The notes beneath the pieces were generated by a model. It was not told the origin of the DNA, ran no database searches, and was given only the letters and a program-made list of their open reading frames with translations. A stretch of 64,000 nt of DNA. It comes from Falseniella ignava CCUG 37419. Lineage in GTDB: Bacteria > Bacillota > Bacilli > Lactobacillales > Aerococcaceae. The stretch spans positions 114,451-178,450 of the forward strand of contig NZ_JH932301.1 in assembly GCF_000301055.1 (NCBI RefSeq), written 5' to 3'. Position numbers and translations under genes: made by a program. Positions 13,866 through 48,713 of this stretch are shown piece by piece; position 1 is the first letter of the stretch; every line of letters begins with the position of its first letter.

Positions 13866-13904
13866 AGAATCACCCTCTTTTCATTTTATTTGAACATACT
13901 ATTC

Positions 13905-13933
13905 ATTATACGTTATTATCCTTTGACTTGAAA
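13905..13933 (-). promoter_or_regulatory. mgtE promoter
   Basis: Minus strand TTTCAA (13933-13928), 17-base spacer, TATAAT (13910-13905), about 40 bases before the mgtE start. Confidence 0.55.
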
Positions 13934-14025
13934 GTTGAAGCAGAATCTATTGAAAGAAAGTGATTGTACTTCAGCAGTAATTGACTTATCCTTATTAAGG
14001 AAGAGGATAATTTGGAGGAAATAAG

Positions 14026-45547: not shown

Positions 45548-45645
45548 TGTATATTCCATAACTTGAGAGCTAGACTCAACTATTTTTTTATAACCACAAT
45601 TCATGTACAATACAATTAACAGTCAAAATGAAGGAGGTTGCATGC

Positions 45646-47262
45646 ATGGTTTTACTTAGAGAAATTTTTAGTCATCCTTTTTTTGATAAAATTGATATTG
45701 CGACAGATCGCAATGTTACATTGAATAAAGAAGTAACATCGGTTGTTTTGTCAGAAGTTCCCGACATTGAGAAATTTATTAAGCCGGGCGTCGTAGTAGT
45801 AACTACAGGAATTATTTATAAAGATATGCCTGATGAAATGATGAAGCTGATTGATTCGCTTAAGCGAGTGCATGCGGTGGCGCTAGGCTTTAAGGTTGGG
45901 CGTTTCTTTGATGAGATCCCACAAAATATTGTCGACTATGCCGATGAACAAGGATTGTTAGTCTTTCGCGTGCCCGAAGGGATCTTCTTAATTGATGTAG
46001 TAAATCAAATTCAAAATATGATTCAAGGTACCGATGATTTGAGCTTTGCTTTGAATATTCAGAAGCAGTTGACTGATTTGATTTTCCGAGAAGCGTCGCA
46101 GCAATTTATTATTGATCGTTTTGCAGAAATTGTTGGTACACCGGTTCTATTAATTTCGCCTTATTATTCGTTGGAATATGCTTCAAAAGATATTAATAAG
46201 GGGAAAAACAAATCGATCATCGATCGCGTTTTATCATTTCTTCGTGATCAAAAAATTGAAAAAGAAATGTCGATTCGTCTCCCCCTTGAAGACTCAGATC
46301 AACAAGTCATCCGCATTCGGGTTATTTCACTGAAGACCTACCAACATCATCCACATTACTTGGTAATCTTACATCCTGAGCAGTTACCTTATCCAATATC
46401 CGCCTTTACTTTCGAACAGGTTGCAGTATCCATGTCTTTCGCGCTTTATAAAGATCGCAAAGAAGCAGCCACCGAGCACGCCATTCAGTCAGAGTATTAT
46501 CGACGCTTGATGGGCCTATCTAAAGTGGGACGAGTTCCGGATGAATCGCTCTTAACCGATTTAAATTATGGAATTTTGCCGACAAACTACTATCAAGTGA
46601 TTCGAATTGGCGATGCCGCATCGCTGGGGTTACCATACAATAGTAGCTATGAAGAAGAGAAGATGGAGATTCTTGCCCAATGGCTACGTACCTATGCCGG
46701 TGATTATTTGAAGGGTACTGTCGTTTTTGAAGATTCGCGCAGTGATAGTCTGTACCTTATTTTACAGCAATATACTAAGAAGCTGAACGCGACACTTCAC
46801 CAAATTCAGGAGCGCATTGAGGCAGATTTGAAGATGGATATCTATTTCTGTCTGGGCAATACATATTTAGATTTAAGTAAGTTAGGGTTATCCTGTAATG
46901 AAGCTAATATTGTGTATGATGAAGTTCAAAAACGAGCCGCCCACGATATTGTGAACTATCTGGATAACAACGTGTTCTATCATCTATTTGGTGAGGTAAA
47001 TAGTGATGTCGTGAAATATTATTGTCAGTCTGTCTTAAAAGAGTTGGCTTATCCGAAAGACAAGCAAATGATTGAATTGCGCAATACATTGAAGACGTAT
47101 TTAGGCAATCAATGTGAAATTTCTACTACCGCTAAAGAGTTATTTGTTCATCGCAACACAGTGATTTACCGGATTCAGAAATGTGAAGAAATGCTAGAGT
47201 ACTCCGTTTCGGCGCCTCGGAACTCCTTAAATATCCGATTGGCTTTAGAGCTAAGTGAATAG
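45646..47262 (+). CDS. PucR-family transcriptional regulator
   Basis: 538 residues. An N-terminal PucR purine-catabolism regulator domain (about 1-125, with VVVTTGIIYKDM and a following GFKVGRFFDEIP) is joined through a long GGDEF-like/CdaR middle region (about 290-420) to a C-terminal PucR helix-turn-helix (about 480-535, LGNQCEISTTAKELFVHRNT). PucR proteins usually activate purine or ureide catabolism genes in response to a ureide ligand. The catabolic genes lie just downstream on the same strand. ATG at 45646 has AAGGAGGT seven bases upstream; the ATG at 45628 overlaps that site. Confidence 0.88.
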   Translation: MVLLREIFSHPFFDKIDIATDRNVTLNKEVTSVVLSEVPDIEKFIKPGVVVVTTGIIYKDMPDEMMKLIDSLKRVHAVALGFKVGRFFDEIPQNIVDYADEQGLLVFRVPEGIFLIDVVNQIQNMIQGTDDLSFALNIQKQLTDLIFREASQQFIIDRFAEIVGTPVLLISPYYSLEYASKDINKGKNKSIIDRVLSFLRDQKIEKEMSIRLPLEDSDQQVIRIRVISLKTYQHHPHYLVILHPEQLPYPISAFTFEQVAVSMSFALYKDRKEAATEHAIQSEYYRRLMGLSKVGRVPDESLLTDLNYGILPTNYYQVIRIGDAASLGLPYNSSYEEEKMEILAQWLRTYAGDYLKGTVVFEDSRSDSLYLILQQYTKKLNATLHQIQERIEADLKMDIYFCLGNTYLDLSKLGLSCNEANIVYDEVQKRAAHDIVNYLDNNVFYHLFGEVNSDVVKYYCQSVLKELAYPKDKQMIELRNTLKTYLGNQCEISTTAKELFVHRNTVIYRIQKCEEMLEYSVSAPRNSLNIRLALELSE

Positions 47263-47293
47263 AACTAAATAATGCTGGAACAATCCAATTTTT

Positions 47294-47321
47294 CCCGAAG
47301 ATGATGCATCTTCGGGTTTTT
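47294..47321 (+). terminator. pucR-type gene terminator
   Basis: CCCGAAGAT (47294-47302) pairs perfectly with ATCTTCGGG (47308-47316), followed by TTTTT. Confidence 0.9.
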
Positions 47322-47337
47322 GTGTGGCGTCGAACTT

Positions 47338-47747
47338 CATCTGGATTGCTGGAGGTGCAGTTCTGGTTTGGATAACTTCATCTCGTTCGCTTGAGATGTA
47401 GTTTTGGTTCGGTTAACTTCATCTGGGTTGCTTGAGATGTAGTTCTGTCTCAGTTAACTTCATCTCCGTTCATTGAGTTGAACAAACTCCGTGCGAAAGT
47501 TCATCTCATCCCATTGAGTTGAACAACCTCAGTGTGAAAGTTCGTCTCCGTTCATTGAGTTGAACAAACTCCGCCACAAAGTCCATCTCCACCCCCTGAG
47601 TTGAACAATCTCCGCCACAAAGTTCATCTCCGCTCATTGAGCTGAACAAACTCCGCACGAAAGTTCATCTTCACTCATTGAGTTGAACAACCTCAGCGCG
47701 AAAGTTCATCTCCGCCCCTTGAGCTGAACAAATTCAGCGCGAATAGA
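47338..47747 (+). repeat. Tandem array of ten 41-bp hairpin-forming repeats
   Basis: The anchor CATCT (variants CGTCT, CATCTT) occurs at 47338, 47379, 47420, 47461, 47502, 47543, 47584, 47625, 47666 and 47707, exactly 41 bases apart each time with no indel. Units share a core such as GTTCATCTC, 8 bases, GAGTTGAAC, able to pair with one T-T mismatch; units 2-3 instead read CATCTC...GAGATG, which also pairs. Units differ by substitutions. Because 41 is not a multiple of 3, and stops occur, it is not coding. It is more G/C-rich than the intergenic DNA around it. It lies between the regulator gene and the catabolic operon. Confidence 0.9.
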
Positions 47748-47795
47748 CTTTAATCATATCAAGAGCTAACTCTAACAATATATGCTGTTAAACCA

Positions 47796-47825
47796 TTTTA
47801 GTTAAAACAACTAAAAACGTTTTCG
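47796..47825 (+). promoter_or_regulatory. Operator-like inverted repeat and cre-like site upstream of the catabolic operon
   Basis: TTTTAGTT (47796-47803), 5 bases, AACTAAAA (47809-47816) is a perfect inverted repeat. It overlaps TAAAAACGTTTTCG (47812-47825), which matches the catabolite-responsive element TGAAAACGTTTTCA except at two positions and has a perfect 10-base palindromic core. Suggests a regulator site plus CcpA control about 140-165 bases before the first gene. Confidence 0.5.
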
Positions 47826-47960
47826 TTTTTTGTGCGCGGGTTGCCTAGGATAAGTTCATGATAACGATTACAGTATGAGGTGTAGATTAAGTAGGCGAGT
47901 AGGCCGAGTCATCGGATTTGGCTAAAAGCGGGGTTTAACAATAAAAGGAGGAAGATGTAA

Positions 47961-48713
47961 ATGTTGAAGGATAAGGTCATTATCGTTACAGGTACAGCAG
48001 GTGGGTTAGGTCGATCGATGGCGATTGAATTTGCAAGTCAAGGTGCTAAAGTTGTTATTAACGACGTGCAAGAAGAAGGAATGAAAGAAACCGAACAAAT
48101 GATTCTCGACAACGGCAGGACAGTTAAGTCGATTCTTGCTGACGTTTCAAGCAAAGCAGAAGGTGAAAAAATCATTGATACAGCGGTTAAAGAATTCGGT
48201 ACGGTAGATGTCATCGTGAATAACGCTGCGTTATTAGCGGACTTCAAGCCGTCATTAGGCATTTCAGAAGAAGAATGGGATCGCATTATGGCCGTAAACT
48301 TGAAGGGTGTTTACTTAATGACCAACACCGCTTTACCATTAATGTTAGAAAAAGGAGCAGGAACCTTTATTAACATTTGTTCAATTGGTGGATCTATTGC
48401 GGGTGTAGGTGACGCAGCTTATATTACTGCAAAGCACGGAGTGATTGGTTATACGAAACAATTAGCCTTTAACTATGCGAACAAGGGTATCCGTGCAGTA
48501 ACCCTAAGTCCTGGTTTAACGGATACACCAATGGTACGCTACGCAATTGATGCGGGACGTGAAGAAGTAATGCGTCAAATCGAAGCAACTCCAGCAGGAA
48601 ATATCGGTAAAGCAGAAGATGTTGCATATTTAGCAGCATTCTTAGCAAGTGACCGTGCACGCCATATTAACGGTGTGGACTACAAGATTGACGGAGCACA
48701 ATCTGTCCTTTAA
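47961..48713 (+). CDS. Short-chain dehydrogenase/reductase (SDR)
   Basis: 250 residues, classical SDR. Cofactor loop TGTAGGLG (10-17), VNNAA motif, catalytic Ser141, Tyr154 and Lys158 (YITAK), and the LSPGLTDTPM segment after the active site. An Asp/Asn after strand 2 (INDVQ) suggests NAD(H). It would oxidise or reduce a hydroxy or keto group of a pathway intermediate. RBS AAAGGAGG. First gene of the predicted seven-gene catabolic operon (47961-55409). Confidence 0.9.
   Translation: MLKDKVIIVTGTAGGLGRSMAIEFASQGAKVVINDVQEEGMKETEQMILDNGRTVKSILADVSSKAEGEKIIDTAVKEFGTVDVIVNNAALLADFKPSLGISEEEWDRIMAVNLKGVYLMTNTALPLMLEKGAGTFINICSIGGSIAGVGDAAYITAKHGVIGYTKQLAFNYANKGIRAVTLSPGLTDTPMVRYAIDAGREEVMRQIEATPAGNIGKAEDVAYLAAFLASDRARHINGVDYKIDGAQSVL

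Follow-up and report, generated by a model that had tools for sequence, protein, structure and literature searches.

The ten 41-bp tandem repeats behind a PucR-family gene of Falseniella ignava CCUG 37419 are one of many intergenic arrays in several related genera. The array lies in a stretch of 64,000 nucleotides (assembly GCF_000301055.1, contig NZ_JH932301.1, positions 114,451 to 178,450; hereafter the window), and positions are those of the window unless a contig or locus is named. The phenomenon is real, non-random and more general than was seen in an earlier, sequence-only reading of the window, and the link to PucR proposed there is rejected. The pattern of periods, as far as sequence comparison goes, is suggestive of a role in DNA geometry, and not of control over the neighboring PucR gene. 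We give a probability of about 0.4 to the reading that the arrays are phased candidate dyad sites for a protein along one DNA face, and would serve as architectural or insulating platforms and not as the operator of the next gene.

The window array

The unit print-out showed ten head-to-tail 41-bp units at 47333-47742, with unit starts at 47333 + 41k (47333 to 47702) and zero indels. Print-out and TRF both upheld the sequence-only reading's exact 41-bp period, while its coordinates, 47338-47747, were 5 bases late. The fixed period and the absence of indels hold, and the constraint on unit spacing proposed there is likely. The array is also non-coding, as had been stated, with 6-8 stops per frame in every frame, and it has no spacers, the units being contiguous with all 41 bases repeating. 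With no unique spacers between near-identical repeats, a CRISPR was rejected. The array and its surroundings are as follows.

45628..47262, + strand: PucR-family regulator gene (PucR domain and HTH_30, by domain matches), the upstream neighbor; not judged part of the array system
47263..47332, no strand: left flank, GC skew +0.10, a weak value next to the clearly positive skew of many other arrays
47294..47316, + strand: terminator-like stem-loop behind PucR with a T tail after it (2 such sites in 800 bases, 0.9 expected by shuffles)
47333..47742, + strand: whole array, ten 41-bp units (TRF, unit print-out)
47333..47455, + strand: sub-array 1, three units (1-3), palindrome AACT.CATCT..AGATG.AGTT (TRF, unit print-out)
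47456..47742, + strand: sub-array 2, seven units (4-10), palindrome GTTCATCTC..GAGYTGAAC (TRF, unit print-out)
47744..47813, no strand: right flank, C-rich and G-poor, GC skew -0.33
47961..48713, + strand: short-chain dehydrogenase (SDR) gene, first downstream gene (by domain matches); not judged part of the array system

The array begins 17 positions past the last stem base of the terminator-like hairpin. TRF splits it into two overlapping sub-arrays, 47333-47471 (3.4 copies, score 164) and 47459-47743 (7.0 copies, score 332), and gives a further two rows at period 82; the remaining repeats of the window score 41 to 57. The palindromes of the two sub-arrays are related. The TRF consensus of sub-array 1 contains an inverted repeat that none of 200 shuffles equalled (p 0.00), and that of sub-array 2 contains one at a shuffle p of 0.04, with one fixed mismatch in the arms and linkers that lean to C and A. 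GC skew within the array is +0.07 in the left half and -0.32 in the right half. The earlier statement that each unit can form a hairpin held for part of the array. When the units are folded singly as DNA, the shared palindrome forms in units 2 and 5, where no more than 6 of 200 shuffles do as well; with 12 and 15 of 200, units 3 and 8 lie at the border. Unit 10 has a good fold (5 of 200) of a different structure, and the other five units do not exceed shuffles.

The array and the PucR gene

Downstream of the SDR gene lie genes for an amidohydrolase, an amidase, a purine/allantoin-type permease, an ApbA-type reductase and a CobW protein. The segment 47961-54788 is a putative N-heterocycle or purine-type degradation operon behind PucR, its permease belonging to the cytosine/purine family. 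No partition (parA/parB-type) gene was found among the tested neighbors of the array, which were PucR, SDR, amidohydrolase, amidase, permease, ApbA and CobW.

The sequence-only reading placed the array between a PucR gene and its target operon, and its position before a purine/heterocycle-type operon would suit an array of PucR operators controlling that operon. We find this scarcely credible. A genome search for the unit, which had been named beforehand as a test of the PucR view, found the family at seven other places, so the sites are not confined to PucR-controlled genes. A PucR search matched 17 of 60 family genomes, the F. ignava genome and 16 relatives, and 11 PucR-like loci from these 16 relatives (proteins 31-36% identical) had no tandem repeat with a score of at least 50 within 1.5 kb flanks. 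Further, a B. subtilis PucR-box pattern had no match with up to two mismatches at 47263-47960. Over the whole window the same pattern gave 89 matches at up to two mismatches against 61 expected, with the excess spread out and absent from the array gap.

Other arrays in the F. ignava genome

The F. ignava genome assembly (G000) has 1.77 Mb in 6 contigs and is 98% complete. BLAST of the array against it returned weak relatives elsewhere in the genome, and a pattern for the palindrome core gave 61 forward and 2 reverse matches, compared to 0 and 1 for a control pattern. The core-pattern arrays lie at 162k (the window array), 340k, 527.7k, 529k, 538-539k, 607k and 614k of contig C2 and at 599k of contig C1, along with a few single matches. 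In 0.79 Mb of this genome, the non-coding arrays fell into at least four palindrome families, all of 41-42 bp, that look unrelated in sequence by eye. Higher-order periods of 82, 84, 123 and 126 bp occur among the arrays. Runs of 100 Ns that mark scaffold joins interrupt arrays at L010 (1730-1829), L009 (4242-4341) and L126 (2537-2636), and copy numbers are therefore minimum values. One 42-bp array of this genome (L141, about 13878-13952) contains a single 74-bp step, with some 32 extra bases between two units.

The sequence of the window array had no match among 40 relatives or in plasmid and phage collections. A search for known RNA families in seven array-bearing loci returned only a tRNA at gathering scores.

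A survey of the family

The census covered 2.41 Mb from 26 family genomes, of which 1.62 Mb came from 25 relatives, and part of it was sampled after a first match. To begin with, 20 kb from each of 17 relatives were taken, and array-bearing genomes and others were then sampled further. Arrays of 41 or 51/52 bp were seen in four relatives (G002, G005, G019, G022) at this first look. In all, arrays of this kind were found in G002, G005, G010, G015, G018, G019 and G022, which with F. ignava make up 7 of the 19 sampled genera; many genomes were sampled at 20-80 kb, and array-free genomes were judged on that much. G001 was left out, since 1,010 bases without any G or C were counted in it, probably masked sequence.

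Among non-coding arrays with at least 3 copies, 36 of 40 had periods of 40-42 or 51-52 bp, namely 41 (16 arrays), 42 (14), 51 (3), 40 (2) and 52 bp (1), with one array each at 92, 175, 61 and 35 bp; the 40 are not independent, as 17 come from F. ignava, some are parts of one array and the window array is counted twice. At a threshold of at least 2.2 copies the figure was 46 of 52, the added exceptions being 45 and 119 bp. Two F. ignava arrays (L141 6819 and 14780) were coding by the ORF rule and so stand outside the count, while arrays of 42 or 51 bp in L024, L031 and L130 were manually assigned to the non-coding set, as stops or steps that break the frame (41 or 43 bp) also occur in their unit families. 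The 92-bp period is an alternation of 41 and 51 bp, and the 175-bp array has dyads at 10557.0, 10577.5 and 10598.0, i.e., palindromes 41 bp apart. The 61-bp array looks CRISPR-like. The 35-bp array, in G018, is a genuine exception to the period rule, and shorter repeats, one of 45 bp (2.3 copies) and one of 47 bp (2.1 copies), are also present in this genome. A small control of 12 genomes from other families of the order (240 kb) contained two arrays, of 99 and 121 bp.

A CRISPR-like array of G018, L152 15132-15403, has a 28-bp repeat and 33-bp spacers, of which two adjacent ones are identical. A title-level survey of the open-licence PMC literature on tandem repeats turned up no description of such an array class.

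Step length and helical phasing

That 41 bp is close to four helical turns was part of the sequence-only reading, and this point was strengthened by the relatives, which use 41/42 or 51/52 bp. In 37 clusters, the steps between consecutive units were 40 (2 steps), 41 (90), 42 (139), 43 (1), 51 (29), 52 (2), 61 (1) and 74 bp (1), with none at 44-50 or 53-60 bp. As these clusters were picked for such periods, the counts are informative for variation within arrays only; units of one array are not mutually independent. The clusters used for steps and for flank skew have periods of 40-42, 51-52 and 92 bp; those of 11, 35 and 175 bp were left out, as were the ones of 99 and 121 bp from outside the family and the G010 and later G018 arrays. 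Further spacing values were 15 (4 times) and 27 (3 times), from two k-mer matches per unit in L010, 21 (once, L115), 81-84 (7 times, skipped units), and 139, 159 and 172 (flank matches); steps across Ns were dropped. The observed steps correspond to 4, 5, 6 and 7 helical turns at 10.0-10.75 bp per turn, in most cases 10.2-10.5, and steps near 6 and 7 turns are rare. At L112 (G022), steps of 41 and 51 bp alternate with the same palindrome arms, and the difference consists of ten linker bases. A single 51-bp step among 41s was seen at L068.

A period could also be inherited from one ancestral array or be set by a 41-bp ruler of another kind. Because the same period recurs in different sequences, however, shared ancestry would not suffice unless some constraint also purged other indels. 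Phased A-tracts were rejected as a source of intrinsic curvature, since the 10-bp harmonic was not in excess in the arrays analysed (37 with units of 41-42 bp, just 4 with units of 51-52 bp). In the 41-42 bp arrays, a purine/pyrimidine signal inside units peaked at harmonics 8 and 9 (about 5 bp), which may reflect one dominant family.

Palindromes

An inverted repeat at a shuffle p of at most 0.05 was present in 32 of 51 consensus units, 22 of 29 from F. ignava and 10 of 22 from relatives, several units coming from one family. Arm positions are slower to change than the other positions of the unit: 118 of 1848 arm positions vary in F. ignava and 52 of 1194 in the relatives, compared to 360 of 2283 and 219 of 1629 non-arm positions. 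The sequence-only reading had pointed to stem changes in the window array that keep pairing, and this is not general. Over 17 arrays, 100 of 176 single changes in stems break a pair, 65 give G-T and 11 give a Watson-Crick pair, and of 13 double changes 5 keep the pair and 8 fail. Changes to G-T and to A-C, at 65 to 47, show no clear strand preference. Conservation of the arms without compensatory changes favors DNA half-sites of a dimeric protein over selected RNA or DNA hairpins.

Placement, orientation and flanks

Where both neighboring genes were called (31 clusters), 20 clusters occupied gaps between co-directional genes, 8 between convergent and 3 between divergent ones. The divergent share, 3 of 31, compares with 37 of 130 for array-free gaps of 250-1500 bp (p 0.036, with rough gene calls). 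In the cases inspected, by eye only, the arrays sit behind terminators. Two unit families could be oriented. In one, 61 units are on the strand of positive GC skew, as judged from neighboring samples, and 2 on the other; in the second, the counts are 28 and 0. This orientation holds at L009 and L126, where the neighboring genes run the other way. Along the sampled F. ignava stretches, GC skew flips from minus to plus between 100 kb and 114 kb of C2 and from plus to minus between 610 kb and 720 kb of C1, suggesting the origin and the terminus, and joining C1 to reversed C2 would make the replichores more equal.

The flanks differ in composition. The left flank is G-richer than the right in 35 of 38 clusters (32 of 34 without four rows whose flank is empty or nearly so). 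Mean skew runs from +0.40 to +0.20 in the left 80 bp and from -0.35 to -0.26 in the right 80 bp, and has faded at a distance of 80-110 bp. The tendency from G-rich to C-rich was seen in five genera, while of three later clusters from two other genera (G010 and G018) one showed it, weakly; the signature is a property of some genera only. Array-free gaps of F. ignava and relatives have the left-G-rich direction in 61 of 130 cases. Array-free convergent gaps lean the same way as array flanks (5 of 7 in F. ignava and 4 of 4 outside the family, both small numbers), as do 11 of 16 array-free gaps of all kinds outside the family. Pairing of the two flanks into one large stem was rejected, since true pairs bind no better than mismatched ones (35 pairs, permutation p 0.85).

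Arrays come and go among species within one genus. In G002, six 51-bp units lie between the terminators of a convergent gene pair, and G022 and G048 are array-free at the orthologous gap, where the aligned ends are 87 bp (G022) and 112 bp (G048) apart versus 533 and 546 bp in G002. Arrays are present in both G002 and G022 at another orthologous gap, with no visible sequence relation. Near arrays in G002 and G022 (L112, L070, L074, genus g3), a separate hairpin with GGGAGTCGC..GCGACTCC or AGAGTCGC..GCGACTCT is found repeatedly and is perhaps a MITE.

What the arrays may be

In the reading that we prefer, each palindrome would be a DNA-level dyad site for a dimeric protein, which would assemble along one face of the DNA, and changes that rotate the next site out of phase would be removed. 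The arrays may then be architectural or insulating platforms between transcription units, similar in build to a plasmid centromere. Several observations count against dyad platforms. No significant palindrome was found in 19 of the 51 units, and no 10-bp sub-period was found inside units. Also, with several apparently unrelated palindromes in one genome, one sequence-specific protein could not read them all. The limits of the flank signature, the similar lean of array-free convergent gaps, the 35-, 45- and 47-bp repeats of G018 and the non-independence of the arrays counted weigh on the same side. A variant would be a satellite-DNA system in which sequence is free to change and palindromes are held at whole turns (4, 5, rarely 6 or 7), with a putative architectural reader of geometry or of fast-changing half-sites, and with flank strand composition that flips at the array in some genera; we regard it as rather unlikely. 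Tentative as well, and ranked second after the phased platforms, is a serious rival in which the arrays are functionless or selfish satellites. Hairpins on the lagging-strand template would promote slippage, unequal exchange would homogenize the units, and arrays would survive only in harmless gaps. The higher-order periods, the one-strand orientation, the scarcity in divergent gaps (subject to the rough gene calls), and the presence or absence of an array at one orthologous gap and the different array sequences at the other all speak for such satellites. Slippage, however, does not account for periods close to a whole number of turns, and the within-array absence of steps 2-9 bp off, the conserved arms and the flank skew are left unexplained.

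An RNA-level element, with rows of read-through hairpins and an exit side of about 80 nt, C-rich and G-poor, acting as a Rho loading site in a bidirectional transcription stop, is improbable. The fading of the flank skew at about 80-110 bp on both sides would fit, and 20 of 25 family genomes, F. ignava included, have a Rho match above the family cut-off. But most window units fold little better than shuffles, compensatory changes are few, G-T against A-C changes show no clear strand preference, the skew does not extend to the three later clusters, and helical phasing is unexplained. The requirement for Rho is weakened by G018, which has a 41-bp array and no Rho match over the cut-off; the match is absent in 5 of 25 genomes (G006, G008, G014, G018 and G024), including one of the two species of genus g6 searched. 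Still more improbable is an origin as REP/BIME-like or insertion-element-derived repeats that a tyrosine transposase has spread. REPs are described as short intergenic palindromes mostly in unidirectional and convergent gaps (PMC3733652), and the arrays are likewise small extragenic palindromes found mainly in such gaps. Against this, no Y1_Tnp (PF01797) match at E <= 0.001 was found in the 98%-complete genome, with controls ringing in 5 of 14, two unit families run head-to-tail on one strand, and the window array is unmatched in the 40 relatives.

In sum, 7 of the 19 genera sampled have arrays that differ in sequence but mostly keep to periods of 40-42 or 51-52 bp, which points to a DNA-geometry constraint and hence to a putative protein or process not yet described.

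Comparison with known systems

Tandem repeats of bacteria are commonly regarded as products of slippage, with unit lengths that are arbitrary. Bacterial VNTRs or minisatellites, of which the MLVA loci of Streptococcus pneumoniae are reportedly an example, share the head-to-tail build and the higher-order repeats with the present arrays; we know of no ordinary VNTRs that share one quantised unit length across unrelated sequences. REP/BIME elements have extragenic short palindromes in common with the arrays. REPs, though, carry GTAG/CGTC tags, often stand in opposite orientations and are linked to a RAYT transposase, whereas the arrays have uniform orientation and a fixed step, with no Y1 transposase match in the genome.

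Plasmid iterons and the parS repeats of pSM19035 are repeated sites, in helical register, on which a protein assembles, and the present arrays resemble them in that register. These systems are single loci with one cognate protein and a conserved sequence, unlike the arrays. A helical complex is described for pSM19035 parS (PMC9499535).

Nearest in build is the F plasmid centromere sopC (parSF), described as twelve tandem 43-bp repeats, each with a 16-bp inverted repeat bound by a ParB dimer (PMC6238139, PMC9178275). It is like the window array in unit length, about 43 versus 41 bp, and in having one dyad per unit. It differs in that sopC adjoins sopA and sopB, while the window array has no partition genes beside it, and in that sopC-type systems have one array or shared site per replicon, as opposed to many chromosomal loci and at least four families of different sequence here. 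In eukaryotes, nucleosome-scale packaging is thought to set satellite unit length, and a phased satellite system, if true, would be its prokaryotic counterpart.
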